NCBI RefSeq assembly: GCF_001940455.1
Contig: NZ_MKQR01000028.1
Location: 288,057 to 352,056 of the forward strand
Origin: Actinokineospora bangkokensis
GTDB lineage: Bacteria; Actinomycetota; Actinomycetes; Mycobacteriales; Pseudonocardiaceae
Direction: 5' to 3'
DNA: 64,000 nt
Notes under the pieces: generated by a model
Told to the model about the DNA's origin: nothing
What the model saw: the letters and a program-made list of their open reading frames with translations, nothing else
Database searches by the model: none
Program-made: the position numbers and the translations under genes
Part shown: positions 32,309 through 60,840 of the stretch, in pieces
Layout of the letters: every line of letters starts with the position of its first letter
Numbering within the stretch: position 1 is the first letter of the stretch

Positions 32309-32543
32309 GCAGCGCGCCCACCCACAAACCGCAACGCGCCCCACGAGGACTGCTCGATGGGGTGGTTGTGCTTGGTCGGGGGAGGCGATCATGTGCTACC
32401 CAACGGGACGGGCGGGCGTCTTTTCAGCCCGCCTTTTCCCCGCCCGACAGCGCATGATCGCCGCAGGGGCCCCGACCAAGCACAACCACCGCATCGAGCC
32501 CGCAAACCAATCCGCGCTCTTCACAGAGCTGCGCAGCAGCTCC
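32309..32543 (+). repeat. Dispersed palindromic element, copy A
   Basis: Outer stem 32352-32381 with 32470-32499 (29 of 30 pairs); inner stem 32384-32397 with 32449-32462 (14 bp, one G-T pair); bulge GCAGGGG at 32463-32469 opposite GA. The apical part has hairpin GGCGGGC/GCCCGCC followed by TTTTCCCC (32411-32441), which resembles an intrinsic terminator; CGGGCGGG can alternatively pair with CCCGCCCG. The right flank carries CTGCGCAGCAG. The flanks also match copy B over about 235 bp. It lies between convergent genes. Confidence 0.85.
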
Positions 32544-32572
32544 CCGCTCCCCAAGCCGCGCAGCAGCCCCCT

Positions 32573-33757
32573 TCACACCCCGCGCAACGCCTCCCGCACC
32601 CGCACCCGCCCATCCGTCCGCAGGATCGCCCCCGCGTACACCCGCCCACCCACCCACGCCAGCCCCGCCACCGCCACCACCATCAGCACCAGCGCCACCG
32701 CCACCTCCCACCCGCTGGCCACCCCCAGCGCCAGCCGCCCCGGCATGAGGATCGGCGCGAACGGCGGCAGCAGCGACAGCACCGCCGTCGCGGCGCCGCC
32801 GGGTGCCCGGGACAGCAGGCCGAAGCCGAGCACGAACGCCAGCACGAGCACCGAGGTCACCGGCAGCAGCACCGACTGGGTCTCCTCCTGCCGCGACACC
32901 AGCGATCCCGCCGCCGCGAACACCGCCGCGTAGAACAGGTAGCCGAGCAGGTACCAGACCAGGCCCCACAGCAGGGTCCCCGCCGCGGCAGCCGGGATGG
33001 TCAGCACGCCGGTAGCCCAGGCGAGCACGACCCCCGCGCCGCCGATCACCGACAGCTGCGCCAGGCCCACCACGCCGAGCCCGATCACCTTGCCCAGCAG
33101 CAACTGCCAGGGCCGCACCGCGGCGAGCAGCAGCTCCGCGACGCGGCTGGACTTCTCCTCCACGACGCCCTGGGCGACCATCGTGCCGTGCAGCAGCAGT
33201 GACGTGTAGAGCAGCACGACCACCACCAGCGCCACCGCGAGGCGCTGCCCGCGGGCGGGGTCGCCGGTGTCGATGGCGTGCACGTCCACGGTGGCGTCGG
33301 AGACGGTGGCGAGGACCTCGGCCGGGTCGACGTCGTCGCCGAGGGTGGCGAGCAGGCCGCGCAGGACCTCCTGCTGCACCAGCGCGGTGAGGGCGCCGCG
33401 CAGGTTCTCGTCGACCGAGTCGCGCACGAGCACGCGCAGGGCGCTGGGGGTGCCGGTGACCAGCGCGTCCAGGGTGCCGTCCGCGACCTGGGCGGTGCCG
33501 TCCGCCTGGTCGCGGATGGTGGTGGTCTCCACCACCAGGCCGCGGGCCCTGGTCTCGTCCTTGAGCGGTTCGGCGATGGCGGTGGCCTGGCCGAGCAGGC
33601 CGACCCGGGGGCCGTGCCGGTCGGTGAACAGCGAGGTCTGCACCAGCACGAACGCCACCAGCACCGCCACCGACACCGCGGTGCCGAGCAGGAACGAGCG
33701 CGCCCGCAGCCGGGTGCGCAGCTCCCGGCGGGCGATGACCCAGACCGTCCTGGTCAC
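32573..33757 (-). CDS. ABC-2 type permease (NatB-like)
   Basis: A 394-residue permease with one N-terminal helix (about 22-42), a large extracytoplasmic loop to about residue 175, then five helices, the layout of NatB/YhaP-type ABC-2 exporters. VEEKSSRVAELLLAAVRPWQ, after helix 2, is the family signature. GTG 33757 overlaps the ATPase stop by 4 nt. With the ATPase it should export a cation, peptide or lipid; the substrate is unknown. The 3' end lies 30 bp from repeat copy A. Confidence 0.88.
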   Translation of the reverse strand: MTRTVWVIARRELRTRLRARSFLLGTAVSVAVLVAFVLVQTSLFTDRHGPRVGLLGQATAIAEPLKDETRARGLVVETTTIRDQADGTAQVADGTLDALVTGTPSALRVLVRDSVDENLRGALTALVQQEVLRGLLATLGDDVDPAEVLATVSDATVDVHAIDTGDPARGQRLAVALVVVVLLYTSLLLHGTMVAQGVVEEKSSRVAELLLAAVRPWQLLLGKVIGLGVVGLAQLSVIGGAGVVLAWATGVLTIPAAAAGTLLWGLVWYLLGYLFYAAVFAAAGSLVSRQEETQSVLLPVTSVLVLAFVLGFGLLSRAPGGAATAVLSLLPPFAPILMPGRLALGVASGWEVAVALVLMVVAVAGLAWVGGRVYAGAILRTDGRVRVREALRGV

Positions 33758-34683
33758 CGGTCGACCACCTCGCGGTAGAGGTCGACCAGGGCGGGGCGGG
33801 CCAGGCGGAACTCGCGCACCGGGCCGGTGGCCAGCGCCGCGGCGAGCACCAGCTGCTCGTCGGCGCCCTCGGCCAGCGCCAGCACGGTCCTGGTGCCCTC
33901 GACGCCGGTGACCCGGGCGCCGGGGACGCCGTCGGCCCAGCCGGGGCGGGCCCCGGGGGCGTCGACGACGAGCACCTCACCGCTGCCCGCGCGCAGCTGC
34001 GGCACCGTCCCGGCGGCCACCGCCCGGCCCGCCCGCGCGATGACCACCCGGTCGCAGACCCGCTCCACCAGGTCGAGCTGGTGGCTGGAGAACAGCACCG
34101 GCACCCCGGCCGCGGCCCGCTCGCGCAGCACGTCGGCGAGCACGTCGACCGCGGCGGGATCCAGGCCGGAGAACGGCTCGTCGAGCACCAGCAGCACCGG
34201 GTCGTGCACCAGGGCGGCGGCCAGCTGCACGCGCTGCTGGGTGCCCAGGCTCAGCCGCTGCACCTCGGTGCCGCGGTGCGGGCGCAGGCCCAGCCTGGCC
34301 ACCCAGTCCTCGGCGGCCCGGTGCGCGGTGTCGACGTCGGCGCCGTGCAGCTCGGCCAGGTAGACCAGGTGGTCCAGGACGCGCATCCGGGGGTAGAGGC
34401 CGCGCTCCTCGGGCAGGTAGCCGAAGCGCACCCGGTCGGCCGGGGTGACCGGGGCGCCGCCCCAGGTGACCGCGCCGGAGTCGGGGCGCAGGATGCCCAG
34501 CACCACCCGCATGGCGGTGGTCTTGCCCGCGCCGTTGCCGCCGACGAAGCCGACCAGCTCGCCGGGGTCGGCCCGCAGGTCGAGCCGGTCCAGGGCGGTC
34601 ACCGGGCCGAACCGCTTGCTCACCGCCGTGACCAGCAGCCCCGCGGCCCCGGCGTGCGCCGCCCCCGCCCTCGCAGAAGGCAC
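33754..34683 (-). CDS. ABC transporter ATP-binding protein (NatA-like)
   Basis: A 309-residue ATPase with Walker A GGNGAGKTT near residue 52, the signature variant LSLGTQQRVQLAAAL, Walker B LLVLDEPFSGLDP and H-loop SSHQLDLVERVCD. A C-terminal domain of about 80 residues follows. The LSLG-QQR signature and FGYLPEERGLYPRM Q-loop region are typical of NatA/YhaQ-type ATPases paired with NatB permeases. GTG 34683 has GGAAGGGG 6 nt upstream; a TTG one codon earlier is less likely. Upstream DNA (182 bp) separates it from a divergent ESX cassette. Confidence 0.9.
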   Translation of the reverse strand: MPSARAGAAHAGAAGLLVTAVSKRFGPVTALDRLDLRADPGELVGFVGGNGAGKTTAMRVVLGILRPDSGAVTWGGAPVTPADRVRFGYLPEERGLYPRMRVLDHLVYLAELHGADVDTAHRAAEDWVARLGLRPHRGTEVQRLSLGTQQRVQLAAALVHDPVLLVLDEPFSGLDPAAVDVLADVLRERAAAGVPVLFSSHQLDLVERVCDRVVIARAGRAVAAGTVPQLRAGSGEVLVVDAPGARPGWADGVPGARVTGVEGTRTVLALAEGADEQLVLAAALATGPVREFRLARPALVDLYREVVDR

Positions 34684-34864
34684 CAAGTACCCCTTCCCGG
34701 CTGCTCCGTCGTGGTCCAGTATCCCGGGTGCGGGCGGGTCGGCACGCCGGTGCCCGGTGCGACCGCAAACGAGTTCGGCGTTTCCGGCACGAGCCGGAAC
34801 CGATCGGAGGATGCTCCGTCATACAGGGGCGGATGCTCCGGGTAGGACCATTGGAGAGGTCAGG

Positions 34865-35299
34865 ATGAACCCTGAACAGTGGCTCGCGCAGTACGACGAG
34901 GAGCTGCAGCAGGTGGCGGCGAAGGCCGCGAAGACGGAGAAGGCGCTCAAGGAGATCTCCGGGTCCGCGACCTCCTCCGACGGCGAGGTGTCGGTGCACG
35001 TCAGCGCCAACGGCGTGACCACCGGCCTCGTCCTGCGCCAGGGCGCCCGCGAGCACGAGCCCGACCAGCTGGCCAGGCTGATCATGGAGACCACCCGGCA
35101 GGCGCAGCGCGACGCCAGCGCCCAGGTGGTGGCGGCCATGGAGGGCCTGGTCGGCGACGGGGAGGCGCTCGACGTCGTCAAGTCCAGCATGCCGGTGGGC
35201 TTCCGCGGGGACGCCGAGGACGGCGGCGCGCCCGCGCCGCGCCGGGACAAGCGGTCCGACGACGAGTACTTCGACAACCCACCCGAAGTCGTGAACTAG
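34865..35299 (+). CDS. YbaB/EbfC family protein of an ESX cassette
   Basis: A 144-residue protein with a YbaB/EbfC-like core (residues 1-105): long N-terminal helix, a beta sheet around GEVSVHVSANGVTTGLVLRQ, and a second long helix (RLIMETTRQAQRDASAQVVA). The tail is acidic, charged and disordered. Family members bind DNA as dimers, but in actinobacteria a diverged branch precedes genes for type VII secretion substrates and may act with them. ATG 34865 follows GGAGAGGTCAGG. It is 16 bp upstream of the EspC-like gene, in one operon. Confidence 0.8.
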   Translation: MNPEQWLAQYDEELQQVAAKAAKTEKALKEISGSATSSDGEVSVHVSANGVTTGLVLRQGAREHEPDQLARLIMETTRQAQRDASAQVVAAMEGLVGDGEALDVVKSSMPVGFRGDAEDGGAPAPRRDKRSDDEYFDNPPEVVN

Positions 35300-35315
35300 A
35301 ACGGGGCGGAATCCG

Positions 35316-35615
35316 ATGGGCCAAGGTTTCAACGTCAACGTGCCGGAGTTGGTGAGCCACGCGCGGACCGTGGCGAACATCTCCCACCAGGTGCAGGCCG
35401 TGACCAGTTCCGCCCAGGCGGTCAACGGGGACGCCTTCGGGGTGATCGGGCAGTTCTTCGCCCAGGCCGTCATCGGCGCCTGCGGCGACGTGGTGCAGGG
35501 GATCGTCAAGGTCGCGACGTCGGTGGACGACGTGCGCAAGGGGCTGGAGGCGGTCGCCAAGACCTACTCCGACATCGACGCGGCGAACGCGGGCACGTTC
35601 GCCGGGAAGCTGTGA
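35316..35615 (+). CDS. EspC-like ESX secretion-associated protein (WXG100 superfamily)
   Basis: A 99-residue, all-helical protein of two predicted helices (about 8-40 and 48-86). The turn region is QAVNGDAFGVIGQFF. The C-terminal type VII secretion motif Y-x-x-x-D is present as YSDID (Tyr84, Asp88). Size, hairpin layout and tail match the EspC/ESX-1 secretion-associated family. It probably forms a heterodimer with the product of the next gene, 7 bp downstream, and carries the export signal for both. No ESX membrane components (EccA-E, MycP) are in this window, so the machinery must be elsewhere. Confidence 0.82.
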   Translation: MGQGFNVNVPELVSHARTVANISHQVQAVTSSAQAVNGDAFGVIGQFFAQAVIGACGDVVQGIVKVATSVDDVRKGLEAVAKTYSDIDAANAGTFAGKL

Positions 35616-35622
35616 GGCGGGC

Positions 35623-37287
35623 ATGACGACCACCGGCACGACGACCTCCACGACGACGGCGTCCGGCGCGCGCACCGCCGAGCAGGGCGCGCAGAACCTC
35701 ACCAACGACATCACCAGCGTGAAGTCCTCCATCGAGCGCGGCGACTGGCTGGAAGCGGGCCTGGGCGCGACGAACGTGGCGATGGACGTCATCGGCATCA
35801 TGGGCGACCCGCTGCAGGCGGCGGGCTCGGCCGGGTTCGGCTGGATCATCAGCCACATCTCGTTCCTGCGCAAGCCGTTCGAGGCGCTGTTCGGCGACGT
35901 CAACTCGATCCTGGGCAGCGCGGGCGGCTGGACCAAAACCGGCTCCCAGCTGACCCAGACCGCCGAGTCGTTCCGCCAGGCCGCGGTCAAGGAGACGACG
36001 AGCTGGGTGGGCGCCGCGGCCGACGGCTACCGCAAGGCCGCCGCCACCCAGGCCCAGGGCCTCGACGCGCTGGCCCAGGTCAGCAAGGCCATCGGCGAGA
36101 CGGTCAAGCAGGCGGGCCAGCTGCTGGCCGAGGTCCGCAACGCGGTGCTGGACTTCATCAACAAGTGCGTGCAGAAGGTCATCCAGATCATCATCGAGGC
36201 CCTGGCGAAGGCCTGGCTGAGCTTCGGCGCCTCGATCGCCGAGGGCATCGCCCGCTCGGTGGCCACCGCGGTGCAGACCGCGCAGAAGATCGCCTCGAAG
36301 GTGCAGAAGTTCGTCTCCTCGCTGCAGAAGATCATCCAGGCGGTGCAGAAGGTCGTCCAGCTGGCCAAGGCGGTCAAGCAGCTGCTGGAGACCATCGGCG
36401 GCAAGGCCGCGGGCACCGCCCCGGCGCAGACCACCCAGGCCCCGCAGGTCAACCCCGGCCAGCTCGACCAGGCGGCCAACACCCAGTACAGCAACAACGG
36501 CCAGACCAACCAGGCCAACTACGGCCAGCAGCAGGTGCCCGGCTACGGCGGCTACCAGCCGCTGCCCCAGGGCCAGTCGAACTCGGCCAACTACGGCCAG
36601 CGCCCCACCCCCGGCTACGGCGGCTACCAGCAGCCCTCGGGCGGCTACACCAACCCCGCCAACTACGGCCAGGGCACCACCCCCAGCTACACCGGCTACC
36701 AGCCCCCGGCGGGCCAGGGCAGCTACCAGCAGCCCCCCACCTACGGCAACTACGGCGGCAACACCCCCAGCTACGGCGGCTACCAGCCCATCCAGCAGCC
36801 CACCCCGTACACCCCGGGCGGCTCGACCCCGGGCACCCTCCCGCCGACCCCCGGCCAGGTCACCCCGCCCAACTACGGCACCTCCGGCCCGCCCCCCACC
36901 CCGGGCGCCCCCGCCTCAATGGTCGACCGGGCCCGCTGGATCGGCAGCGCCGTGGAGATCCTCGTCGCCCACGGCGTCGACCCCTCCAAGATCGATCCCG
37001 GCCTCATCGCCCAGATCGTCGACCGCCAGTCCGGCGGCAACCCGCACGCCATCGACATGTCGGCCCCCGGCGCCGCCGACGGCCAGGCCCCCAAGGGCAT
37101 CATGGGCGTGACCGACCAGCAGTTCCAGCAGCACCAGGTCCCCGGCTACCAGAACATCTGGGAACCCGTCGACAACATGCTGGCGGGCATCAAGCACCTC
37201 GTCCAGGAGTGGGGCTCCATCATGGACGCCCTCAACGCCCTCAACGGCGGCACCTCCGGCACCGGCCCCATGACCATCCAGGCCTGA
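35623..37287 (+). CDS. Putative ESX substrate: WXG-like helical region, Tyr/Gly/Gln/Pro repeats and degenerate lytic transglycosylase domain
   Basis: A 554-residue protein in three parts. Residues 1-265 are helical, with a WVG motif at 128-130 and long amphipathic or hydrophobic helices (for example KVIQIIIEALAKAWLSFGAS). Residues about 270-430 are low complexity, with repeats such as ANYGQRPTPGYGGYQ and PSYGGYQP. Residues 432-554 resemble actinobacterial SLT transglycosylase domains (ILVAHGVDPSKIDPGLIAQI, then VDRQSGGNPHAI, PKGIMGVT, NIWEPVDNMLAGIKHLVQEWG). The catalytic Glu of the usual RESGGNP motif is Gln469 here (codon CAG), so enzyme activity is doubtful; peptidoglycan binding is likelier. 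No signal peptide, consistent with ESX export. An intrinsic terminator follows. Confidence 0.75.
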   Translation: MTTTGTTTSTTTASGARTAEQGAQNLTNDITSVKSSIERGDWLEAGLGATNVAMDVIGIMGDPLQAAGSAGFGWIISHISFLRKPFEALFGDVNSILGSAGGWTKTGSQLTQTAESFRQAAVKETTSWVGAAADGYRKAAATQAQGLDALAQVSKAIGETVKQAGQLLAEVRNAVLDFINKCVQKVIQIIIEALAKAWLSFGASIAEGIARSVATAVQTAQKIASKVQKFVSSLQKIIQAVQKVVQLAKAVKQLLETIGGKAAGTAPAQTTQAPQVNPGQLDQAANTQYSNNGQTNQANYGQQQVPGYGGYQPLPQGQSNSANYGQRPTPGYGGYQQPSGGYTNPANYGQGTTPSYTGYQPPAGQGSYQQPPTYGNYGGNTPSYGGYQPIQQPTPYTPGGSTPGTLPPTPGQVTPPNYGTSGPPPTPGAPASMVDRARWIGSAVEILVAHGVDPSKIDPGLIAQIVDRQSGGNPHAIDMSAPGAADGQAPKGIMGVTDQQFQQHQVPGYQNIWEPVDNMLAGIKHLVQEWGSIMDALNALNGGTSGTGPMTIQA

Positions 37288-37312
37288 CCCGCACCACCAC
37301 AGCACCACACAG

Positions 37313-37343
37313 AGAGGGCCGCTCCCCCCGGGAGCGGCCCTCT
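37313..37343 (+). terminator. Terminator of the ESX cassette
   Basis: Arms AGAGGGCCGCTCCC and GGGAGCGGCCCTCT pair exactly over 14 bp with a CCC loop, followed by TCCTGTCC. Confidence 0.75.
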
Positions 37344-37408
37344 TCCTGTCCCACCTACAAACCACCCCCACCTCACCCACCCCTCATCTCGCCTGCCCTG
37401 TCCTTGAG

Positions 37409-37643
37409 GCAGCGCGCCCACCCACCCAACGCAACGCGCCCTGCAAGGACTGCTCGATGGGGTGGTCCTGCTTGGTCGGGGAAGGCGATCATGTGCTACC
37501 CACAGCGGACGGGCGGGCATCTTCTCAGCCCGCCTTTTCCCGCCCGACAGCACATGATCGCCGCAGGGGCCCCGACCAAGCAGGACCACCCCATCGAGCC
37601 AGCAAAGCAATCCGCGTTCTCTTCTTAGCTGCGCAGCAGCTCC
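37409..37643 (+). repeat. Dispersed palindromic element, copy B
   Basis: Outer stem 37452-37481 with 37570-37599, perfect over 30 bp; inner stem 37484-37497 with 37549-37562, perfect over 14 bp; bulge GCAGGGG at 37563-37569 opposite AA. The apical hairpin GGCGGGC/GCCCGCC is followed by TTTTCCC. Relative to copy A the outer stem has GGTCCTGC/GCAGGACC in place of GGTTGTGC/GCACAACC, a three-pair compensatory change. It lies between the convergent ESX effector and glpD genes, where a terminator already exists at 37313. Confidence 0.87.
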
Positions 37644-37659
37644 ATGCCCGACCACACGC

Positions 37660-39183
37660 TCACAACCCAGCGAGAGCGCGCTCCACCAACCCCTCCACAA
37701 CCCCCCGAACAGCGTCCCCCTCCGCCCGCACCAACCCCACCCGGCTCCGCCGCTCCACCACGTCCTCCACCGTCAACACCCCCTCGTTGCGCACCCCCCA
37801 CACCACTTCCCCCGCGGTCACGTCCCCCCACAGCACCTCCCCCAACTCCGCGTCGACCTCTCCCATCGCCGCGACCACCCCGGCCTCGACCCCGTACCGC
37901 CCCACCAATCCCGCGGGCGCGTCCACCCGCGCCAGCTCCTCCCGCGACGCCGCCCCCACCAGCGGGAGATCGGCGGAAACCGAAGGCCCGCAGGCCAACC
38001 CGCCGCGCACCACCGCCACGTCCACCGCGTCGGCCGCCATCCGCCGGTACGTCGTCAGCTTCCCCCCGACGACGGTCACCACCCCCTCCGACGACACCAC
38101 GACGGCGTGGTGCCGGGACAGGTCGGCGCTGCGCCCGGGGGCGTCGAGCAGCGGGCGCAGCCCGGCGAACGCGCCCAGCACGTCCGCCCGCCGCACCGGC
38201 GCGGCCAGCGCCGAGGACGCGACCCCGAGCAGGAAGTCCACATCGGACTCCGGGACCTCGGGCACGTCCGGCACCGGCCCGTCCACCGGTTCGTCGGTGA
38301 GCCCCACGTACACGCGCCCGCCCGGCTGCGGCAGCACGAGCCCGTAGCGGCCGAAGGAGATCGGCACGGCCAGCGCGGTGCCGGTGATCCCCAGCCGGGT
38401 GCCGTCGAGCACCAGGTGCGTGCCGCGCGAGGGCCGCAGCACCACCTCCGGCACCAGGGACCCGGCCCACACCCCGGCCGCGTTGACCACCACCCGCGCC
38501 CGCACGTCGAAGCGCTCCCCGGTGAGCGCGTCCTCGGCCGACACGCCGTCGCGCCGCGCTTCGAGCACGCGCGCCCGGGTGATGACCCGCGCGCCCAGGC
38601 CCGCCGCGGTGCGGGCGAGCGCCACCACCAGCCGCGCGTCGTCGACGAGCTGGCCGTCGAACGACAGCAGCCCGCCGCGCAGGTCGCGGCGCAGGCCCGG
38701 GGCCAGCGCCAGCGCCTCCTGCGCGGACACCCGGCGGGGCCGGGGGAGCAGCGACGACGGGGTGCGGGCGGAGCGGCGCAGGCCGTCGCCCGCGACGAGC
38801 CCGGCCATCGTCAGTGCGGCGTCCCGGCTCGACACCCCGGGCGTGAGCGGCACCAGCTGCGGCAGGGCCCTGGTCAGGTGCGGGGCGGTGCGGGTCATCA
38901 GGACGCCGCGCTCCACCGCGCTCTCCCTGGCCAGCCCGACGTCGCCCTTGGCCAGGTAGCGCAGGCCGCCGTGGACGAGCTTGCTCGACCAGCGCGAGGT
39001 GCCGAAGGCCAGGTCGTGCGCCTCCAGCAGCACCACCGACAGCCCGCGCGCGGCCGCGTCCAGCGCCACCCCCGCCCCGGTGACCCCGCCGCCGACGACC
39101 ACCACGTCCGCCACCCCGTCGGCGGCGGCCGCCAGGTCGCGGGCGCGGCGCCGGGCGTTGAGGGCGGTGGGGCGGTCGGACAC
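37660..39183 (-). CDS. glpD: FAD-dependent glycerol-3-phosphate dehydrogenase GlpD
   Basis: A 507-residue membrane-associated flavoenzyme oxidising glycerol 3-phosphate to dihydroxyacetone phosphate, passing electrons to quinone. The FAD-binding GGGVTGAGVALDAAARG lies near residue 30, then FGTSRWSSKLVHGGLRYL (substrate/FAD region), NAAGVWAG, PQPGGRVYVGLTDEPVDGP and SSEGVVTVVGGKLTTYRRMA. GTG 39183 has GAGGAG 6 nt upstream. The TetR gene is 10 bp upstream, probably its regulator. Codon use near the 3' end is normal despite the repeat 17 bp beyond. Confidence 0.93.
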   Translation of the reverse strand: MSDRPTALNARRRARDLAAAADGVADVVVVGGGVTGAGVALDAAARGLSVVLLEAHDLAFGTSRWSSKLVHGGLRYLAKGDVGLARESAVERGVLMTRTAPHLTRALPQLVPLTPGVSSRDAALTMAGLVAGDGLRRSARTPSSLLPRPRRVSAQEALALAPGLRRDLRGGLLSFDGQLVDDARLVVALARTAAGLGARVITRARVLEARRDGVSAEDALTGERFDVRARVVVNAAGVWAGSLVPEVVLRPSRGTHLVLDGTRLGITGTALAVPISFGRYGLVLPQPGGRVYVGLTDEPVDGPVPDVPEVPESDVDFLLGVASSALAAPVRRADVLGAFAGLRPLLDAPGRSADLSRHHAVVVSSEGVVTVVGGKLTTYRRMAADAVDVAVVRGGLACGPSVSADLPLVGAASREELARVDAPAGLVGRYGVEAGVVAAMGEVDAELGEVLWGDVTAGEVVWGVRNEGVLTVEDVVERRSRVGLVRAEGDAVRGVVEGLVERALAGL

Positions 39184-39193
39184 GGGGTGCTCC

Positions 39194-39811
39194 TCAGGGG
39201 GACAGGGCGGCGTCGAGCAGGTGCGCCAGCTCGGCGTAGAGGGCCTCGGCGTCGAGGTCGGCGGTGGCGGGGGCGTGGGACAGCACGAACGACTGCACCA
39301 CCAGCAGCAGCGCCCTGGCCTGCGCCCGCGGCTCGGCCCGGCGGACGGTGCCGTCGGCGTGGCCCGCGGTGATGTGGGCCAGCAGGAACTCCTCGGCGAT
39401 CTGCTGGGTGCTGCCCAGCCGGGTGACGACGTAGGGCAGCACCAGGTCGCCGTCGCGGTCGAGGATGGTGCGCATGAGCGGGTCGGCGGCGATCGCGCGC
39501 ACCCCCGCCACGGCCCCGGTGACGAGCCGGTCGCGGGCGGCGGGGCGGTGCGCGACCTCGGTCTGGGTGCGCGCGAGGGCCTGGCCGAACTCCCTGGTCA
39601 TCAGGGTCGCCAGCAGCCCGCGCACGTCCGGGAAGCGGCGGTAGAGGGTCATCCGGCTGACCTCGGCCCGGCGGGCGACGTCGGTCAGCGTGGTGCGGCG
39701 CACCCCGTTGGCCAGGACGCAGTCGCGGGCCGCGTCCAGCAGCACGTCGTCCTCCACCCGGGTGGGCGCGGTGCCCCTGGAGACCGTGTTGCTGTGACGT
39801 TTATCCGTCAT
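39194..39811 (-). CDS. TetR family transcriptional regulator of the glpD/flavoprotein divergon
   Basis: A 205-residue TetR regulator. The helix-turn-helix is RTTLTDVARRAEVSRMTLYR with RFPDVRGLL near residues 40-68; the C-terminal ligand domain is helical. It is co-directional with glpD (10-bp gap) and divergent from the flavoprotein gene with only 17 bp between starts. This matches my recollection of mycobacterial Rv2250c between glpD1 and Rv2251. ATG 39811 lies inside a palindrome, arguing for autoregulation. The ligand may be a glycerolipid intermediate; this is inference. Confidence 0.88.
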   Translation of the reverse strand: MTDKRHSNTVSRGTAPTRVEDDVLLDAARDCVLANGVRRTTLTDVARRAEVSRMTLYRRFPDVRGLLATLMTREFGQALARTQTEVAHRPAARDRLVTGAVAGVRAIAADPLMRTILDRDGDLVLPYVVTRLGSTQQIAEEFLLAHITAGHADGTVRRAEPRAQARALLLVVQSFVLSHAPATADLDAEALYAELAHLLDAALSP

Positions 39812-39819
39812 GTGTCACA
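39793..39819. promoter_or_regulatory. Palindromic TetR operator candidate over the divergent starts
   Basis: TGACG-TTTATC-CGTCA (39795-39810) is a perfect inverted repeat covering the TetR start codon. A second repeat, TGTGAC (39793-39798) / GTCACA (39814-39819), overlaps it. The 17-bp divergent gap leaves no room elsewhere for an operator. Confidence 0.5.
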
Positions 39820-39828
39820 CTCTATCCC

Positions 39829-41860: not shown

Positions 41861-41962
41861 GCCAGAAGGGTCCACCACGGCAGGGCCTTTGCCCAGGGTC
41901 CGCAGCGCCGCCGACCGGGGCCCGCGGCGGGTCGGGGGCGGGCGGGCCGCCCCGGCGCCCGG

Positions 41963-50986: not shown

Positions 50987-51175
50987 TCAGGCCGAGGCGA
51001 ACGACGCCCGCACCGGCGCCGCCGCGGGTGAACAGCGCCGCGCCCCGAGCCATCGGCGCCGGCGTCCACCCCGACGACGCGCCGCAGCCGGGGCGCACGG
51101 CCACCGGCACCGTCCGGGTCCCCGGGCATCGCCGCGCGCCAGGACGGCAGCAGAGGGCCGAAGGCCGCGGGGCCC

Positions 51176-52781: not shown

Positions 52782-54448
52782 GGCGTGCACCCCGCGGGCG
52801 GGCACATCACGGCGGCGAGGGCGGCGTAGAAGATGTCCGCGATCTTCGTCGGGTCGGGGGTGGTGTAGGCCTTCCCGCCGGTGGCCTCGGCGATCGACCT
52901 CAGCTCGGCCTCGTCGACGTCCGGCCCGATGCCCACGCCCACCAGCGGCAGCGGGCGCCTGGGGTCCTGGAGCTCCGCCAACTCCGCCAGGAGCCCTTCC
53001 CGGCTGATGCCGTTCGCGTCCTCGTTGCGACCGTCGGTCATCACGATGACCACGTTGATCCGCCCCGCTTCCCAGTTCTCGCGCGACAGCCGGTAGGCGG
53101 CGAGCACGCTGTCGTAGAGGCCGGTGGCCCCGCCCGCCACGGCCTTGACGCCCTTGACGCTCTCCGCCGCGCCTGCCGCCAGGTGGTCGCGCACCGGGCC
53201 CATCGGCAGCAGCTCGCGGTAGTCCTTGTCCCCGTCGAGGTTGGTGGAGAACAACCACATCCCGTACTCCGAGGTCGGCTGGAACAGGGTCATGCCCAGC
53301 GACGCGGCTTCGGTCGTGATCGCCATGCGGTCCTTGCCGGTGCCGGGCACGGCCTGCGCCATCGACCCGGACACGTCCAGCAGCACCTGCGTGCGCGAGG
53401 ACCGGTTCGCCCCCGCCCACTGCTCCAGCAGGGCGGCCACGGCGTCGTCGTCGGGGGTGGTGGTGCGCGCGACCCGGGCGCTGGAGGTCCGCTGGTCCTG
53501 CGAGCGGTCGCGCAGCACCGAGCCGTCGGCGGCCCGGTACCCGGCGTCGCCGAGGAACCGCACCGACGACTCGTCGAGCAGCCTGCCCGCGAACGCCAGC
53601 GCCACGTCCCGCCTGTCCTGCGGGGTGCTGGGCAGGACGGTGTACGGGTAGTCCATCGACGGCACCGGGGGGTCGGCGTACCCGGCGACCAGCTTCGTCG
53701 ACCCCTCGCGGGCGTTGTGCCTGAGCACGTCGTGCTCGGTGGCGGCGATGACCCCCAGCGGCTGGTCGGCCGACCCGCCCGGCAGCCGGTCGAACAGGTC
53801 CGCGGCCCGGGGTGCGGTGCCCGCGGCGACCCGGCGCAGGGTGCTGGTGAGCGCGGCGCTGGGGTCCGGGGCCCGCTCCGCCACCGCCCGCACGCCGAAC
53901 AGCGCGGACGTGCCCACCGGGTCGCGGGCCGGGTCGGGCACGCCCAGGGCGGTGCCCGCCGGGACGGCGAGCAGGTCGGCCCACGTCGGGGTGCGCTGCG
54001 GCCAGCCCAGCGCCCCGGCCACGTCGTCGGTGGTGGCGAGCACGACCGGGGACGAGGCGAGGGAGGTGCCGTTGACCCGGCCGGTGAACCCGCCGTTGGC
54101 CCGCGCCCGGTCCAGCGACAGGGTCGACTCGGGGATCCACACGTCGGGCAGGGTGCCGCTGGCCGACACCGCCAGCGACTCCGCGACGGCCACCGAGTCC
54201 TGGGCCGTCACCACCACGCGGTAGCAGGCCTGCGGGTCGGCGGCCGCCCGCTTGCCGAGCTCGTCCACCAGCGGGGCGATGTCCGGCGCGGCGGTCACCG
54301 CCAGCTCGGTGGTGCGGTCGCAGGTGGGGCCGAACCAGCCGGGGACGACGGCGACGCCGAGCCAGGCCAGCAGCCCCACCACGACCGCCCCCACCACCGC
54401 GAGCACGGCGGGGCGTGCGCCGCCGCGGCCGGACGAGTGACGCCCCAT
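52778..54448 (-). CDS. Membrane-anchored substrate-binding and VWA-domain protein
   Basis: A 556-residue protein with an N-terminal membrane helix (about 14-33, VLAVVGAVVVGLLAWLGVAV). The outward-facing part begins with a periplasmic-binding-protein-like domain (residues 45-320, including LPDVWIPESTLSLDRA) and ends with a von Willebrand A domain (about 350-545). The MIDAS motif is DVSGS, with the Thr in the GGATGLYD loop and Asp in VMTDGRNED. Such proteins are widespread in actinobacteria; they may bind ligands or metal outside the membrane, but their role is unknown. It precedes and overlaps the proline iminopeptidase gene. Confidence 0.83.
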   Translation of the reverse strand: MGRHSSGRGGARPAVLAVVGAVVVGLLAWLGVAVVPGWFGPTCDRTTELAVTAAPDIAPLVDELGKRAAADPQACYRVVVTAQDSVAVAESLAVSASGTLPDVWIPESTLSLDRARANGGFTGRVNGTSLASSPVVLATTDDVAGALGWPQRTPTWADLLAVPAGTALGVPDPARDPVGTSALFGVRAVAERAPDPSAALTSTLRRVAAGTAPRAADLFDRLPGGSADQPLGVIAATEHDVLRHNAREGSTKLVAGYADPPVPSMDYPYTVLPSTPQDRRDVALAFAGRLLDESSVRFLGDAGYRAADGSVLRDRSQDQRTSSARVARTTTPDDDAVAALLEQWAGANRSSRTQVLLDVSGSMAQAVPGTGKDRMAITTEAASLGMTLFQPTSEYGMWLFSTNLDGDKDYRELLPMGPVRDHLAAGAAESVKGVKAVAGGATGLYDSVLAAYRLSRENWEAGRINVVIVMTDGRNEDANGISREGLLAELAELQDPRRPLPLVGVGIGPDVDEAELRSIAEATGGKAYTTPDPTKIADIFYAALAAVMCPPAGCTP

Positions 54449-54547
54449 CGCGCTGAACCTCCCTGGATCCGCCGGTCCGCCCCGCAGGTTAGGGCAGGCG
54501 ACGGGCTGCCAGGGAGGTCCAGGCGTCGTGCGTCACCCGCGGCCGGG

Positions 54548-56347
54548 TCAGGAGTACAGCGCGTCGACCTCGGCGCCGAAGTCCTTCATGATCACGTTGC
54601 GCTTGAGCTTGAGCGACGGGGTCAGGTGCCCGGTCTCCGGGGAGAACTCGGTGGCCAGGATGCGGAACCGGCGCACCGACTCGGCCTTCGACACCGCCAG
54701 GTTGCCCTCGTCGACGGCCTGCTGCACCTCGGCGATGAGGTCCGGGTCGTCCACCAGGTCGGCCACGCTCGCGCCCGCGTCCTTGCCCGCGCCCTTCTTC
54801 CAGTGCGCGAAGAACTCCGGGTCGATGGTGATGAGCGCGGCGATGTACTTCTGCCCGTCGCCGACCACCATGGCCTGCGCCACCAGCGGGTGCGAGGCGA
54901 TCCGGTCCTCGATGACCGCCGGGGCGACGTTCTTGCCGCCGGAGGTCACCAGGATCTCCTTCTTCCGCCCGGTGATCTTGAGGAAGCCGTCGGCGTCGAG
55001 CGAGCCGAGGTCGCCGGTGGCGAACCAGCCGTCGGCGTCGAGCGCGTCGGCGGTGGCCTGCTCGTTGCGCCAGTAGCCGTGGAAGACCTGGCCGCCCTTG
55101 AGCAGCACCTCGCCGTCCTCGGAGATGCGCACCGCGGTGCCGGGCAGCGGCTGGCCCACCGTGCCGGGCTTGATGCGGTCGGGGTGGTTCACCGTGGCGG
55201 CGGCGGTGGTCTCGGTCAGGCCGTAGCCCTCCAGCACCTTGACCCCGACGCCGCGGAAGAAGTGCGTGAGCCGCATGCCCAGCGCGGCGCCGCCGGAGAT
55301 CGCGTACTGGGCCTTGCCGCCCAGCGCCGCGCGCAGCTTGCCGTAGACGAGCTTGTCGAACAGCGCGTGCTTGACCTTGAGCCCCAGGCCCGCCTTGCCG
55401 TCGGCCTCGCTGAAGGCGATCGCGGTGGCCACCGCGGCGTCGAAGATCTTGCCCTTGCCCTCGGCGTGCGCCTTCTGCCGCGCGCCGTTGTAGACCTTCT
55501 CCAGCACGTAGGGCACCGAGAGGATGAACGTGGGCTGGAACGCGGCCAGGTCGGGCAGCAGGTTCTTCACGTCCGGGGCGTGGCCCATGGTGGCCTGCGA
55601 GTACACGCAGCCCACCTGCACCATCCGGCCGAAGACGTGCGCGATGGGCAGGAACAGCAGCGTCGAGGCGTCCTCGGGGATGTCGGTGCCCTTGAACAGC
55701 TTGCCCAGCACGTCGGTGCCGTAGCCGACCTCGGCGAAGAAGTTGTCGTGGGTCAGCGCCACGCCCTTGGGCTGGCCGGTGGTGCCGGAGGTGTAGATGA
55801 TCGTGGCGACGTCGCCGCCCTTGACCGCGGTGCGCCGGGCGTCGACCTCGGCGGCGTCCACCGCCTCGCCCGCCCGGACCAGCTCGGCCACCGCGTCCGC
55901 GTCCAGCCGCCACACGCTGCTGAGGTCGGGCAGGTCGTTCTGCACGGCGGCGACGCGCTTCTCGTGCTCCTCGGTCTCCACCACCACGGCGACCGCGCCG
56001 GAGTCCGACAGGATCCAGCGGATCTGCTCGGCGGAGGAGGTCACGTAGATCGGCACCGGCACCGCGCCCGCGGCCCAGATGGCGAAGTCGAGCAGCGTCC
56101 ACTCGTAGCGGGTGGCGGCCAGGATGCCCACCCGGTCGCCCGCGCCCACCCCGGCGGCGATCAGGCCGCGGGCGACGCCGGTGACCTCGTCGGCGAAGCG
56201 GGCGGCGGTGACGTCCTCCCAGCGCTCCCCGACCTTGCGCCGGAACTGCACGTTGGCCGGGTCGGTCCCGGCGTTGGTGAACACCAGGTCGGCGAGGCCG
56301 CCAGCCTCTTCTCGCTTCGCGACGGCGGGCACGGCGAACTCGCGCAT
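54548..56347 (-). CDS. Long-chain fatty-acyl-CoA synthetase (FadD15-like)
   Basis: A 599-residue long-chain ACS of the eukaryotic/FadD15 type. It has the long linker form of the ANL fold: IIYTSGTTGQPKGVALTHDN (P-loop) near residue 186; the extended gate region LFLPIAHVFGRMVQVGCVYS; YGLTETTAAATVNHPDRIKP; DGWFATGDLGSLDADGFLKI with TGRKKEILVTSGGKNVAP; and the LTPSLKLKRNVI end with the catalytic Lys region. ATG 56347 has GGAGGAG upstream. It activates long-chain fatty acids with ATP and CoA, likely at the membrane. GTAAC (56379-56383) and GTTAC (56402-56406) form a weak inverted repeat upstream. Confidence 0.92.
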   Translation of the reverse strand: MREFAVPAVAKREEAGGLADLVFTNAGTDPANVQFRRKVGERWEDVTAARFADEVTGVARGLIAAGVGAGDRVGILAATRYEWTLLDFAIWAAGAVPVPIYVTSSAEQIRWILSDSGAVAVVVETEEHEKRVAAVQNDLPDLSSVWRLDADAVAELVRAGEAVDAAEVDARRTAVKGGDVATIIYTSGTTGQPKGVALTHDNFFAEVGYGTDVLGKLFKGTDIPEDASTLLFLPIAHVFGRMVQVGCVYSQATMGHAPDVKNLLPDLAAFQPTFILSVPYVLEKVYNGARQKAHAEGKGKIFDAAVATAIAFSEADGKAGLGLKVKHALFDKLVYGKLRAALGGKAQYAISGGAALGMRLTHFFRGVGVKVLEGYGLTETTAAATVNHPDRIKPGTVGQPLPGTAVRISEDGEVLLKGGQVFHGYWRNEQATADALDADGWFATGDLGSLDADGFLKITGRKKEILVTSGGKNVAPAVIEDRIASHPLVAQAMVVGDGQKYIAALITIDPEFFAHWKKGAGKDAGASVADLVDDPDLIAEVQQAVDEGNLAVSKAESVRRFRILATEFSPETGHLTPSLKLKRNVIMKDFGAEVDALYS

Positions 56348-56464
56348 GGGCCTTCTCCTCCGGACGTGCTACGCGTGGGTAACTTCGTCCGTATCTTGCC
56401 TGTTACTACTCCGTTCAGCCAGAGTACGCGGCCCTTCCGTTCTCATGGCGTGACAACTGCGCGC

Positions 56465-56511
56465 CGCGGGGCCCCGACCGGTGGGCTCCACCACCGGGCC
56501 GGGGCCCCGCG
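56465..56511 (-). terminator. Long hairpin terminator of the secreted protease gene
   Basis: Arms 56465-56484 and 56491-56511 pair over about 20 bp with one bulged base. The hairpin lies 36-82 bp after the protease stop on the minus strand. Confidence 0.65.
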
Positions 56512-56546
56512 CTGCGCTGGTCTGAACTGATTCGGAGCGGACCGTC

Positions 56547-58106
<1,560 letters not shown>

Positions 58107-58520
58107 GTGCCCGCACTGCCCACCAGCGACGCCGTCCGGGGTCGGATGAGCCGCCAGCGCGCCCGCGACACCGGGGTGGAGGTCGCGCTGCGCAAGGCGC
58201 TGCACGCCCTCGGCCTGCGCTACCGGGTGCACCGCAAGCCCCTGCCGGGGGTGCGCCGCGAGGTCGACGTGGTGTTCGGCCGGGCGCGCGTCGCGGTGTT
58301 CGTGGACGGTTGCTTCTGGCACGGGTGCCCCGAGCACGCGACCTGGCCGCGCAACAACGCGGAGTTCTGGCGCGCCAAGATCGAGGCGAACCGCACCCGC
58401 GACCGCGACACCGACCGCCGCTTCGCCGAGTCGGGCTGGGCGGTGGTGCGGGTGTGGGAGCACGAGGACCCCGCGGTGGCCGCCGAGCGCGTCCGGGAGG
58501 TCGTCGCACGGCGCAGGTGA
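58107..58520 (+). CDS. vsr: Very short patch repair (Vsr-like) endonuclease
   Basis: A 137-residue nuclease of the Vsr family, which nicks 5' of T in T-G mismatches left by 5-methylcytosine deamination. Family blocks are intact: RMSRQRARDTGVEVALRKAL, LRYRVHRKPLPGVRREVDVV (catalytic Asp), VAVFVDGCFWHGCPEHATWP (zinc-site Cys and His), NNAEFWRAKIEANRTRDRDT and GWAVVRVWEHED; the last has His where E. coli has Cys. GTG 58107 is assumed from family length. No cytosine methyltransferase gene is adjacent, so its partner must lie elsewhere or it is solitary. Confidence 0.9.
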   Translation: MPALPTSDAVRGRMSRQRARDTGVEVALRKALHALGLRYRVHRKPLPGVRREVDVVFGRARVAVFVDGCFWHGCPEHATWPRNNAEFWRAKIEANRTRDRDTDRRFAESGWAVVRVWEHEDPAVAAERVREVVARRR

Positions 58521-58605
58521 GCACCGTCACACCCCGGGGGTTCAACATCCGGGGCGGTGGCGGGCTTCCCAGGGGCGCACTCGACAGACCGCCAGGAGGG
58601 CCACG

Positions 58606-59112
58606 GTGCGCCAGAGCTTCGACCACTTCATCGCCGAGCGGTTGGACCGCTTGCTCCGCTACGCCACCGCGCTGACCTGCGACCGGGACCTGGCGCAGGA
58701 CGTCGTGCAGGAGGTGCTGCTGCGCGCCCAGCGCAAGTGGTCCCGCATCGGGGAGGTCGACGCCCCCTACCTGTACGTGAAGAAGATGGTGACCAACGAG
58801 TACCTGTCCTGGCGCAGGCGCCGCGCCGCCCGGGACGTCCCGGCGTCCTCGGCGGCCCTGGACGCGGTGGCCCCGCCCGTCGCGGACTTCACCACCGCGC
58901 ACGCCGAGCGCGACGCCATGCGCGCCCGCATCGCCGCCCTCCCGCGCCGCCAGCGCGCCGCGGTGGTGCTGCGCTACTACGAGGACTGCACGACGGCGCA
59001 GGTCGCCCACGTCCTCGGCTGCTCGGAGGGCACCGCCCGCAGCCACCTCTCCCGCGCGCTCGCCACCCTGCGCGCCACCACCCCCGCGCCCGCCCCGGAG
59101 GCACTGCGATGA
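58606..59112 (+). CDS. ECF sigma factor, SigE-like family
   Basis: A 168-residue group 4 sigma factor. Region 2 covers residues 5-75 (DHFIAERLDRLLRYATALTC, DRDLAQDVVQEVLLRAQRKW, then YVKKMVTNEYLSWRRRR for -10 recognition). Region 4 covers 100-155 (ALPRRQRAAVVLRYYEDCTT, AQVAHVLGCSEGTARSHLSR) for -35 binding. This is the form of the actinobacterial 'SigE family' ECFs. GTG 58606 has AGGAGGG 6 nt upstream. The stop overlaps by 4 nt the ATG of an LCP-family membrane protein, which may be its anti-sigma partner. No self-promoter was recognised upstream. Confidence 0.92.
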   Translation: MRQSFDHFIAERLDRLLRYATALTCDRDLAQDVVQEVLLRAQRKWSRIGEVDAPYLYVKKMVTNEYLSWRRRRAARDVPASSAALDAVAPPVADFTTAHAERDAMRARIAALPRRQRAAVVLRYYEDCTTAQVAHVLGCSEGTARSHLSRALATLRATTPAPAPEALR

Positions 59113-60170
59113 CCGACCACGAGCACCTGATCCGCGAGGCCGTGGCCGCCGAGGCCGCCCGCTCCGCCGACCCCGAGTCCGTCCGGGCCTTCCTGCGCGC
59201 GGCCGCCCGCCCCAAGCCCACCTGGCCCCGCTTGGTGGTCATCACCGCCGCGGCCGCCGCCGTCGTGCTCGCCGCCGTCCTGCTGCCCCTGGCCTTCCGC
59301 GACACCGCGACCGCCCCCGTCAACCAGATCGCCACCCAGCCCGCCCCCACCCCCGCACCCCAGACGGTGCTCCTGGCGGGCCTCGACGACAACGGCACCG
59401 CGGACACCATCGTCCTGGGCCGCGTCCACACCGACGGCACCGTCCGCGCCGTCTCCATCCCCCGCGACACCACCGCCGACGTCCCAGCCCTCACCGGGGA
59501 CGTCCGCATCAGCACCACCTACCTGAGCGCCCGCGACGCCGCAAAGCAGTCCGGCGCCGATGACGTCACCGCCCAGTCCGCGGGCAGGCAGGCCCTCGCC
59601 ACCGCCGTCGAACAGCTCACCGGCGTCCGCCCCGACCACACGGCCACCCTGACCACCGCATCCCTCCCACCCCTGGTCGAGGCCCTCGGCGGCGTGGACG
59701 TCTGCGTGGCCAAGGCGACCCGCGACCCCGTCACCGGCGCCACCTTCCGCCAGGGCCCCCAAACCCTCGACGGCACCGCCGCCCTGGCCTACCTCCGCCA
59801 GCGCCACGGCCTCCCGGCAGCCGACCTCTCCCGCATCGACCGCGCGCAGCTGTTCCTGCGCAACCTCGCGCAGGAACTCATCCTGCAGGGCTTCACCACC
59901 GACCCCCAGAAGCGCGCCCAGCTCGTCTCGCTGGCCCAGCGCGCCATCACCACCGACCCCGGCTGGGACCTGCTCACCCTGGCGGCCACCCTCACCTCCC
60001 AGTCCCCAGTGGACACCAGGACCCTCCCCTGGGTCACCTACGCCCGGTCCCTCGTGGTGGACCCCGCGCAGGCCAAGGCCTTCACCGCCCAACAGCTCAC
60101 CCCCCAACCCTCCCCCACCACCCCCAGCGCCCCCCTGCCCGCCAGTGGCGACCCCCTCTGCGTGGACTGA
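59109..60170 (+). CDS. LytR-CpsA-Psr (LCP) family protein coupled to an ECF sigma factor
   Basis: A 353-residue single-pass membrane protein: about 42 cytoplasmic residues (EHLIREAVAAEAARSADPES), helix at about 43-63, then an external LCP-like domain. LCP marks are VLLAGLDDNG with TADTIVLGRVHTDG, VSIPRDTTADVP (conserved Arg/Asp pair) and YLRQRHGLPAADLSRIDRAQ. LCP enzymes attach polymers such as arabinogalactan or teichoic acid to peptidoglycan. The overlap with a sigma factor gene and the short cytoplasmic tail suggest it may also act as an anti-sigma factor, linking wall state to gene expression; this is inference. The C-terminus is Pro-rich and ends in a Cys pair region (DPLCVD). Confidence 0.83.
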   Translation: MTDHEHLIREAVAAEAARSADPESVRAFLRAAARPKPTWPRLVVITAAAAAVVLAAVLLPLAFRDTATAPVNQIATQPAPTPAPQTVLLAGLDDNGTADTIVLGRVHTDGTVRAVSIPRDTTADVPALTGDVRISTTYLSARDAAKQSGADDVTAQSAGRQALATAVEQLTGVRPDHTATLTTASLPPLVEALGGVDVCVAKATRDPVTGATFRQGPQTLDGTAALAYLRQRHGLPAADLSRIDRAQLFLRNLAQELILQGFTTDPQKRAQLVSLAQRAITTDPGWDLLTLAATLTSQSPVDTRTLPWVTYARSLVVDPAQAKAFTAQQLTPQPSPTTPSAPLPASGDPLCVD

Positions 60171-60276
60171 CAGGACAACCACTTCCGTGTGAAGCCCATC
60201 CACAACCCTTGCAGCGGAAGCGGTTATTGACACCCCCCGGTGCTCTACTGGAACCAACCGAACTGGGGAGCCCGTC

Positions 60277-60516
60277 ATGCCGAACGACAACCCGCTGAAC
60301 ACCGCCCTGCAAGACTTCCTGACCCAGGAGGGCTGCCTGCCCCCCGGCCGCATCCTCACCCACGCGGTGGTCCTCTACCGCACCTACGCGGTGGAGAACG
60401 GCAAGACCACCATCCGCCGAGGCCGCTGCTACCCCCTGGGCGAACTCGACGCCACCCTGGAACGAGGAATGCTCGCCGACGCCCTCCACGACGCCCGCCA
60501 CCACTCCACCGCCTGA
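60277..60516 (+). CDS. Small protein of unknown function
   Basis: A 79-residue protein I do not recognise. It has no signal peptide or membrane helix; the sequence is mixed alpha/beta, with GRILTHAVVLYRTYAVENGK in the middle, KTTIRRGRCYPLGELDATLE after it, and two Cys. ATG 60277 has GGGGAG 6 nt upstream and a TTGACA at 60227-60232 lies 45 bp further up, without a convincing -10. A hairpin follows the stop, so this is a complete small unit. Codon use matches neighbouring genes. Confidence 0.7.
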   Translation: MPNDNPLNTALQDFLTQEGCLPPGRILTHAVVLYRTYAVENGKTTIRRGRCYPLGELDATLERGMLADALHDARHHSTA

Positions 60517-60520
60517 CCCC

Positions 60521-60546
60521 GGGGGCCGCCCACCCCGGCGGCCCCC
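60521..60546 (+). terminator. Hairpin terminator of the small gene
   Basis: Arms GGGGGCCGCC (60521-60530) and GGCGGCCCCC (60537-60546) pair exactly, 4 bp after the stop. Confidence 0.7.
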
Positions 60547-60629
60547 ACCCACACCGCGCCACTCCCGCTTCCCAAGGAGCTTCCCGAAGAACAGCACCAC
60601 AACGACACCGGCGGCCCGGCTACGGGGAT

Positions 60630-60840
60630 GCCCGGGTGGGTGGTTGTGCTTGACAGGGGAAGGCGATCACGTGCTACCCACGGCCGGGGGTGGGGCCGAA
60701 GGCCTCACCTTTTCCCCACCCCGAGCACATGATCGCCGCAGGGGCCCCTGTCAAGCGCAACCACCCACCCGGGCAAGCCCCAAAATCCCGGATCTTTGCT
60801 CTGCCTGTCCCGGTTCTTTCACGGTCTGCGCAGCAGACCC
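60630..60840 (+). repeat. Dispersed palindromic element, copy C
   Basis: Outer stem 60630-60659 with 60745-60774 (30 pairs, one G-T); inner stem 60662-60675 with 60724-60737 (13 of 14 pairs); bulge GCAGGGG at 60738-60744 opposite AA, identical to copies A and B. Against copy A the outer stem has TTGACAGGGG/CCCCTGTCAA for TTGGTCGGGG/CCCCGACCAA, again compensatory. The apical part differs in sequence but keeps a hairpin (GTGGGGCC/GGCCTCAC) followed by CTTTTCCCC and an alternative GGGGTGGGG/CCCCACCCC pairing. CTGCGCAGCAG recurs at about 60826-60836. It lies between convergent genes. Confidence 0.85.

Follow-up and report, generated by a model that had tools for sequence, protein, structure and literature searches.

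Palindromic elements between genes of Actinokineospora bangkokensis and their link to DUF222-HNH genes in other Pseudonocardiaceae

Background

Several described families of bacterial repeats resemble, in part, the element treated here, a long-stemmed palindrome of which three copies (A, B, and C) lie in a stretch of 64,000 nucleotides from Actinokineospora bangkokensis (assembly GCF_001940455.1, contig NZ_MKQR01000028.1, positions 288,057 to 352,056, forward strand; the whole stretch is called the window). The nearest in kind are YPAL/RU-2, a 168-bp repeat of Yersinia, and the 127-bp ERIC. Both are non-autonomous repeats found between genes, 100-200 bp in length and with long stems, and are transcribed together with upstream genes (PMC2229807). 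YPAL is found at filled and empty sites, much as the present element has many non-coding copies and, in a relative, compact sites. However, target-site duplications of 3-26 bp are reported for YPAL, while none beyond 6 bp is seen in 15 units of the present element, and the portions of PMC2229807 that describe YPAL and ERIC mention no linked endonuclease gene; the likeness is one of description rather than of compared sequence or structure. REP/BIME sequences with RAYT are also extragenic palindromes of high copy number, and mosaic arrays of them are common (PMC2817692), but a REP measures 20-40 bp (PMC3733652), and the Y1 family is absent from the A. bangkokensis genome.

Two further comparisons involve genes that encode DUF222 (a domain of unknown function in Pfam) together with an HNH endonuclease domain, as do the genes found beside the palindrome in other genera. 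HEARO/OMEGA RNA, with IscB, is a structured element beside an HNH endonuclease gene. The present family is alike in that a structured element adjoins an HNH endonuclease gene, and the HNH part of a linked protein gives a weak match to the NCBIfam IscB model (19.7 bits against a cut-off of 175). It differs in that DUF222 replaces the IscB domains and the palindrome has no Rfam match; guidance by RNA would be conjectural. The 13E12 family of mycobacteria is named as a repetitive category (PMC10589994, PMC13061034), and REP13E12 of M. tuberculosis is described as being among the most frequent gene-conversion sites, although its regions are said to lack a defined biological function (PMC13061034, a preprint). 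Here, too, DUF222 and HNH are combined in a gene repeated at several loci, but the passages on these repeats in PMC10589994 and PMC13061034 do not mention structured palindromic ends. Such ends suggest why loci of this type recombine.

As far as the retrieved portions of the open-licence PubMed Central (PMC) literature on palindromic repeats, structured RNAs, and DUF222 extend, the palindrome family is undescribed. In kind it resembles YPAL and ERIC (PMC2229807), from which its architecture and its link to DUF222-HNH genes set it apart. In our reading, to which we give a probability of about 0.55, the window palindromes are solo, non-autonomous terminal palindromes of Pseudonocardiaceae mobile elements that carry a DUF222-HNH gene.

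Structure of the palindrome and the strand that folds

Each copy spans ~155 nt and consists of an outer stem of ~30 pairs, a 7-nt bulge on the 3' side that ends in AGGGG, and an inner stem of 14 pairs (Table 1). Beyond the inner stem, unpaired bases lead to an apical hairpin; a short T-run follows it, and then a third strand, which offers the hairpin's 5' arm an alternative partner. The ACCCA that is unpaired in copy A stands at the position of a TAARC motif in other species. An initial annotation of the window had placed the three copies, and they are recovered by inverted repeats (copy A, 30 nt at 97% and an inner 14 nt at 93%; copy B, 49 nt at 82% plus the inner pair; copy C, 36 nt at 92%), by two core strings, each with three occurrences in the window (expected, 0.06 and 0.03), and by covariance-model matches. 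Single-copy folding, which covered A and C, gives -113.1 kcal/mol (z -11.2) and -125.9 kcal/mol (z -10.4), respectively, with 0 of 200 shuffles as good in either case.

Some details of that annotation need correction. The string TTTTCCCC is present in A and C, but B has TTTTCCCG instead. The 14-bp inner stem exists but is not perfect in every copy: in A it ends in AGCGC, with a U-G pair, and that of C contains a C-A mismatch. The bulge GCAGGGG, described as invariant, is so within the window; in 52 copies of the A. bangkokensis genome, however, its second position holds T or C, or in one case G, and a few of these copies read CATAGGGG instead. The two mutually exclusive apical folds that had been proposed are real in copy A, in which the alternative pairing of strands 1 and 3 is CGGGCGGG/CCCGCCCG (shuffle p 0.02). 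They recur in other species, with a shuffle p <= 0.05 for this pairing in 18 of 36 representatives (3 of 39 could not be parsed). The remark that no named RNA family has this layout holds for Rfam, which yields 0 matches in the window and 5 matches, far below the gathering score, in five loci.

The outer stems of the window copies differ by paired changes, as had been quoted, and the selection on pairing that these changes had suggested is supported by covariation in an alignment of 37 divergent copies. Across 25 outer pairs, 98.6% of the pairings are standard, and 22 of the 25 pairs have changes on both sides. The covariation score of the whole 30-pair structure is reached by 0 of 500 shuffles. 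When the partner is slid by 1-3 columns, pairing is 35-43%, compared to 95.3% unslid.

Within the first 18 outer pairs, G-U exceeds A-C by 197:8 in 175 Actinokineospora copies and by 30:1 in 105 copies of other genera (227:9 overall), although the stem finder used for this count, which allows G-U freely and up to 2 mismatches in 18, somewhat favors G-U. The ratios in two alignments are 19:3 and 33:7 for the outer stems and 13:0 for the inner stem, and the copies of alignment A1 were found without a G-U-permissive filter. A first count over 26 positions gave 7 G-U and 23 A-C in other genera, having overrun their shorter stems. The excess of G-U over A-C indicates that the + strand is what folds, as RNA or as single-stranded DNA, subject to the caveat of strand-biased C-to-T mutation. 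In other genera the sequence of the element has changed greatly. Of 33 printed copies of these genera, 26 still combine a TAARC-type motif with one form of the bulge pattern (AGGGG with CCCC, or AGAGG with CTCC); the same patterns served to orient the copies, and the count has no chance control. The 105 copies of other genera also include 58 cells with a T-C mismatch, 8-9 pairs away from the bulge, the strand order of this mismatch being constant.

Linkage to DUF222-HNH genes

In four genomes of other genera (G022, G181, G069, and G176), matches to the palindrome occur as inverted pairs 1.3-2.4 kb apart, with DUF222-HNH (13E12-type) genes, or pieces of such genes, between them. Pfam assigns DUF222 at 1.2e-31 and HNH at 3.9e-5 to the best of eight linked open reading frames (ORFs), the other ORFs being weaker, partial, or below the cut-off. 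At 25 DUF222 matches, spread over 24 stretches from 7 genomes in 5 genera, the element on the 3' side is always in the sense orientation (15/15) and the element on the 5' side always antisense (22/22). Elements lie on both sides of 13 of these matches and on one side of 11; at the remaining match the strict finder detects none, and the covariance model finds both. Altogether, 35 counted elements of other genera flank DUF222-HNH genes. Furthermore, 7 of 8 units in G022 share the palindrome and ~35 bp of outer trailer at both ends, in inverted order. Given the fixed outward orientation and the inverted shared ends, the palindrome has the properties of a terminal inverted repeat belonging to a DUF222-HNH element. 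The window-type and the gene-flanking palindromes form one covariance-model family, since both are recovered by model R2, whose source alignment has 37 Actinokineospora copies.

A RAYT-like partner, which the initial annotation had suggested looking for, was rejected: the A. bangkokensis genome contains no match to Y1_Tnp (PF01797), and the gene that is linked, in other genera, is instead that for DUF222-HNH. Derivation from a retron, a diversity-generating retroelement, or a group II intron was also set aside, RVT_1 being found in 3 of 16 Actinokineospora genomes and not in A. bangkokensis, as was a phage or plasmid origin, for which copy A gave no DNA match. A defence-system library produced no match for two linked proteins, and a search for relatives of solved structure produced none for one.

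Copy number and distribution

The covariance-model search proposed for the element finds more copies both in its own genome and in relatives. In the A. bangkokensis genome (7.45 Mb in 32 contigs), a core string of 16 bases (<= 2 mismatches) has 64 forward and 58 reverse matches, and its reversed control has 2 and 0; the single orientation of the three window copies is thus an accident of the window. Model R1, built from 52 copies of this genome, finds at least 117 distinct places, counted by hand, of which the window holds 3. R1 matches 15 of 16 Actinokineospora genomes; another species of the genus (G012) has no match with R1 or R2. Model R2 matches 28 of 150 Pseudonocardiaceae genomes, in 10 of 46 genera, and 1 of 296 genomes of a phylum sample, A. 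bangkokensis itself, though this sample may hold no REP13E12 genome. These family and phylum searches used strict filters and scored 20 and 10 candidates per genome, respectively. Because match counts may include reverse-strand echoes of the palindrome and depend on the candidates scored, only the genomes with a match and the 117 places are quoted. R2 scores are 36-68 bits in other genera and 95-135 bits within the genus. Most of the inner stem is missing from the RNAalifold structure used for R2, and the model therefore leans on the outer stem. A pattern of the 3' arm, run over named genomes, gave only Actinokineospora among the matches listed (at least 107 stretches). Many contigs of A. spheciospongiae EG49 (among L119-L225) end inside the element; draft assemblies therefore break there and probably undercount the copies.

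Signs of mobility

At 7 of 10 occupied A. bangkokensis loci, the intergenic junction is shorter in a relative, G007, and the element is absent from the 199 kb of G007 examined. Rounded, the A. bangkokensis and G007 junctions are 303 and 44 bp at the locus of copy A (locus A), 495 and 171 bp at that of copy B (locus B), and 449/12, 970/40 (a copy pair), 420/75, 372/18, and 386/207 bp at the others. Species G008 has a different copy of its own at locus A, as do G001 and G005 at locus B, which fits independent occupation of one kind of site. The locus-A gap holds other sequence and no copy in five other species (400-650 bp) and in G001 (868 bp). At the locus-A orthologue on contig C85 of G002 (L229, L251), the left gene is inverted and element matches in both orientations are close to the junction; the arrangement looks like a segment turned around by recombination between inverted copies.

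The DNA that surrounds the core also varies. Genome G098 has an identical 119-bp core at ten loci, flanked (L337-L339, L349-L355) by tandem arrays whose units measure 30 bp upstream and 24 bp downstream and grow more degenerate with distance from the core. This outward decay is clear in G098 and partial in A. bangkokensis, whose flanking repeats, forward over reverse, number 27:21 upstream and 38:7 downstream. Since the gained DNA exceeds the length of the palindrome, flanking modules move or grow along with it. A second dispersed module, ~140 bp in length, lies upstream of the core of one subclass (L023, L025, L027, L028, L041, and L044; twice in L028), and downstream of the core at L005 the 3' foot and trailer are repeated in tandem almost exactly. 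Pairs within 500 bp in A. bangkokensis are mostly outward-facing (11, compared to 2 inward, by hand count), as internal-deletion derivatives of an element would be. In contrast, all five pairs seen in G001, G002, and G009 face inward. The search for a longer autonomous copy in A. bangkokensis gave only modular intergenic repeats, and the ORFs between its sole outward pair 2 kb apart are presumably host genes.

Proposed origin and spread of the solo copies

The observations described above, which are the architecture, the covariation, the strand preference, the fixed-orientation linkage to DUF222-HNH genes, the many loci, and the compact sites in a relative, are the basis for reading the window palindromes as solo element ends; among the three possibilities originally offered (bidirectional terminator, structured RNA, or non-autonomous mobile element), the last is the best. 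In other genera the full element measures 1.3-2.4 kb, with an outward-facing inverted palindrome at each end and a DUF222-HNH endonuclease gene between. The HNH enzyme would be the mobility factor and would act in trans on solo copies, and element ends would be the source of the window copies, as opposed to capture of older palindromes by the gene. The enzyme may recognize the folded + strand of the palindrome, as hairpin or cruciform DNA or as RNA, and cut there. Repair from another copy (HNH-provoked copying or gene conversion) would then spread and homogenize the palindromes, and the insertions that survive would mostly be those at the 3' ends of genes, where harm is small. Such spread by cutting and repair would explain why copies are homogeneous within a species, why stem changes preserve pairing, why remnants lie nested in the flanks, and why copies survive at low-harm sites.

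Several observations weigh against this interpretation. No DUF222-HNH gene is detected by tblastn in the window or in 777 kb (overlapping) of A. bangkokensis DNA, the rest of the genome being unsearched, so that the window copies are solo copies only. Likewise, DUF222 is absent from 14,962 ORF fragments of ~2.5 Mb (overlapping) of Actinokineospora DNA, which is less than whole genomes; with the same two DUF222 profiles, a control set yields 19 and 18 fragments. Only solo copies were found in genera g17 and g45 and in genome G120, and in G181 the solo and the gene-flanking copies belong, by eye, to different subfamilies. The DUF222 regions were chosen because of their R2 matches, so that the linkage counts apply to DUF222 genes in regions with such matches. 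In 15 units of other genera, the longest direct repeat between the outer flanks is 4-6 bp, with no target-site duplication beyond this length; at solo copies any such signal may be blurred by the repeat arrays around them and by G007 being ~84% identical at locus A. Finally, of the three loci without a shorter junction in G007, L292 is longer there (2.5 kb, compared to ~1.2 kb), L294 (at 439) is rearranged, and L301 is unmatched.

If the window copies are element ends, a DUF222-HNH element explains a large family of intergenic repeats in the actinobacterial Pseudonocardiaceae, and a covarying palindrome in fixed orientation on both sides offers a candidate substrate to test for DUF222-HNH genes and, with it, a likely job for this gene family. 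A bolder version, which we consider improbable as it stands, would make DUF222-HNH proteins mobility enzymes of a class without a DDE, HUH, serine, or tyrosine recombinase, acting on the folded strand of a 120-180 nt palindrome. They might work as a ribonucleoprotein whose palindrome transcript directs the HNH nuclease to matching copies, the repeats homing into each other, and the A. bangkokensis genome would then hold >100 solo ends.

Genomic context and alternative explanations

According to gene calls by our own codon-usage caller, 71 of 97 placed copies in four Actinokineospora genomes lie between convergent genes and 5 between divergent genes; 12 codirectional copies are sense and 9 antisense, and 6 further copies fall off the edge. 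An earlier count of A. bangkokensis alone (n = 53) had 33 convergent, 14 sense, 6 antisense, and 0 divergent. Another, of four named species, which took 80 of at least 107 stretches, had 26 convergent, 11 sense, 10 antisense, 1 divergent, and one overlap. Element-free junctions at those loci are convergent in 39 of 305 cases. Solo copies of other genera comprise 20 sense, 3 antisense, 16 convergent, 3 divergent, and 4 at an edge, the 20:3 ratio being a recount of a first sample from which gene-flanking copies were dropped and to which stretches were added.

The main rival to the mobile-element reading is terminator or 3'-untranslated region (3'-UTR) activity, which might also be a side effect of it. 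As a portable 3'-end RNA element, the + strand would be transcribed from the upstream gene. Its hairpin and T-run would end some transcripts, and in read-through RNA the long rod would block 3' exonucleases or be cut by RNase III, so that selection for transcript ends keeps the copies. We regard this account as possible but rather doubtful. By a relaxed scan (>= 4 T in 7), a terminator-like hairpin is present on the + strand of 50 of 55 A. bangkokensis copies and on the - strand of 1 of 55, and within 150 nt of 9 of 142 control genes; across species, the corresponding counts are 119 of 197 and 0 of 197. This strand bias leaves the bidirectional terminator first suggested for the element unsupported as stated, and a strict scan (>= 5 T in 8) of 32200-37700 flags no terminator at all inside A or B. 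The T-run is also missing from copies of genus g17 (0/13). In other genera, solo copies tend to share the orientation of the upstream gene (20:3, p 0.0005; first sample 18:1, one of each kind adjoining DUF222), but no such bias exists in Actinokineospora (12:9; 14:6 in A. bangkokensis; 11:10 in the four named species). Divergent junctions are rare (0 of 53 in A. bangkokensis, 5 of 97 in Actinokineospora), and the recurring alternative apical pairing (18 of 36 representatives) and the G-U excess would suit an RNA. However, a terminator-like site already precedes 6 of 41 copies. Copy B is included; the normal terminator said to lie near it is a real hairpin, separate from the element, and terminator-like by the relaxed scan. 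In addition, with a fully working terminator transcription would stop short of the 3' arms, and the conserved outer stem would go unexplained.

Two other accounts address the origin of the repeats. They could be older, self-spreading repeats of the ERIC/YPAL type, moved by an unknown transposase, next to or between which DUF222-HNH genes have inserted, the palindromes serving as their safe docking sites. Most examined copies do stand without a gene, including all of those in Actinokineospora, g17, and g45. Nevertheless, we think this unlikely: the outward orientation on 37 of 37 element-bearing gene sides and the presence of like units at numerous unrelated loci of G022 and G181 fit a single unit better, and a transposase candidate is lacking in searches limited to two families (Y1_Tnp, absent from A. 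bangkokensis, and RVT_1, present in 3 of 16 genomes of the genus and not in A. bangkokensis). Covariation might even arise without selection. Long palindromes can self-correct. Hairpin-templated correction during replication could keep the arms of inert repeats complementary, while a C-to-T bias on one strand gives G-U, and the tandem flank copies around the core do resemble replication slippage. Yet templated correction would erase unpaired features, and thus the recurrence across genera of the bulge and TAARC-type patterns (26 of 33 copies, which these patterns also oriented) and of the T-C mismatch (58 cells, 8-9 pairs away from the bulge, among 105 copies) makes this last account very improbable.

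Features of the window

The convergent genes on either side of each copy, and the parts of the copies, are given in Table 1.

Table 1. Palindrome copies and neighboring features, in window coordinates
Feature	Position	Strand	Evidence or remark
Copy A, whole palindromic core	32349..32504	+	model R1, 175.7 bits; fold, -113.1 kcal/mol
Copy A, outer stem, 5' arm	32352..32381	+	inverted repeat
Copy A, outer stem, 3' arm	32470..32499	+	inverted repeat
Copy A, inner stem, 5' arm	32384..32397	+	sequence, fold, inverted repeat; unpaired ACCCA follows
Copy A, inner stem, 3' arm	32449..32462	+	inverted repeat
Copy A, 3' bulge GCAGGGG	32463..32469	+	sequence, fold
Copy A, apical region	32410..32446	+	hairpin 1:2, 32410-32433; T-run, 32434-32437; strand 3, 32438-32446
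Copy B, whole palindromic core	37449..37604	+	model R1, 168.6 bits; inverted repeat; sequence
Copy B, parts	outer arms 37452-37481/37570-37599; inner arms 37484-37497/37549-37562; bulge 37563-37569	+	
Copy C, whole palindromic core	60627..60779	+	model R1, 152.5 bits; fold; sequence
Copy C, parts	outer arms 60630-60659/60745-60774; inner arms 60662-60675/60724-60737; bulge 60738-60744	+	
Perfect hairpin separate from the element, 14 pairs, loop of 3	37313..37343	+	3' of the gene left of B; terminator-like by relaxed scan
Gene left of A, reading towards A	30906..32273	+	codon-usage gene call
Gene right of A, convergent	32573..33757	-	codon-usage gene call
Gene left of B	35623..37287	+	codon-usage gene call
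Gene right of B, convergent	37660..39183	-	codon-usage gene call
Gene left of C, short, low score	60277..60516	+	codon-usage gene call
Gene right of C, convergent	60875..61327	-	codon-usage gene call

A segment of ~740 bp that contains copy A and the ends of its neighboring genes (window positions 31958-32696) is duplicated, at 98% identity, at G000:C26:929008-929746 (L242). The duplicate sits near a contig end, beside short ORFs.

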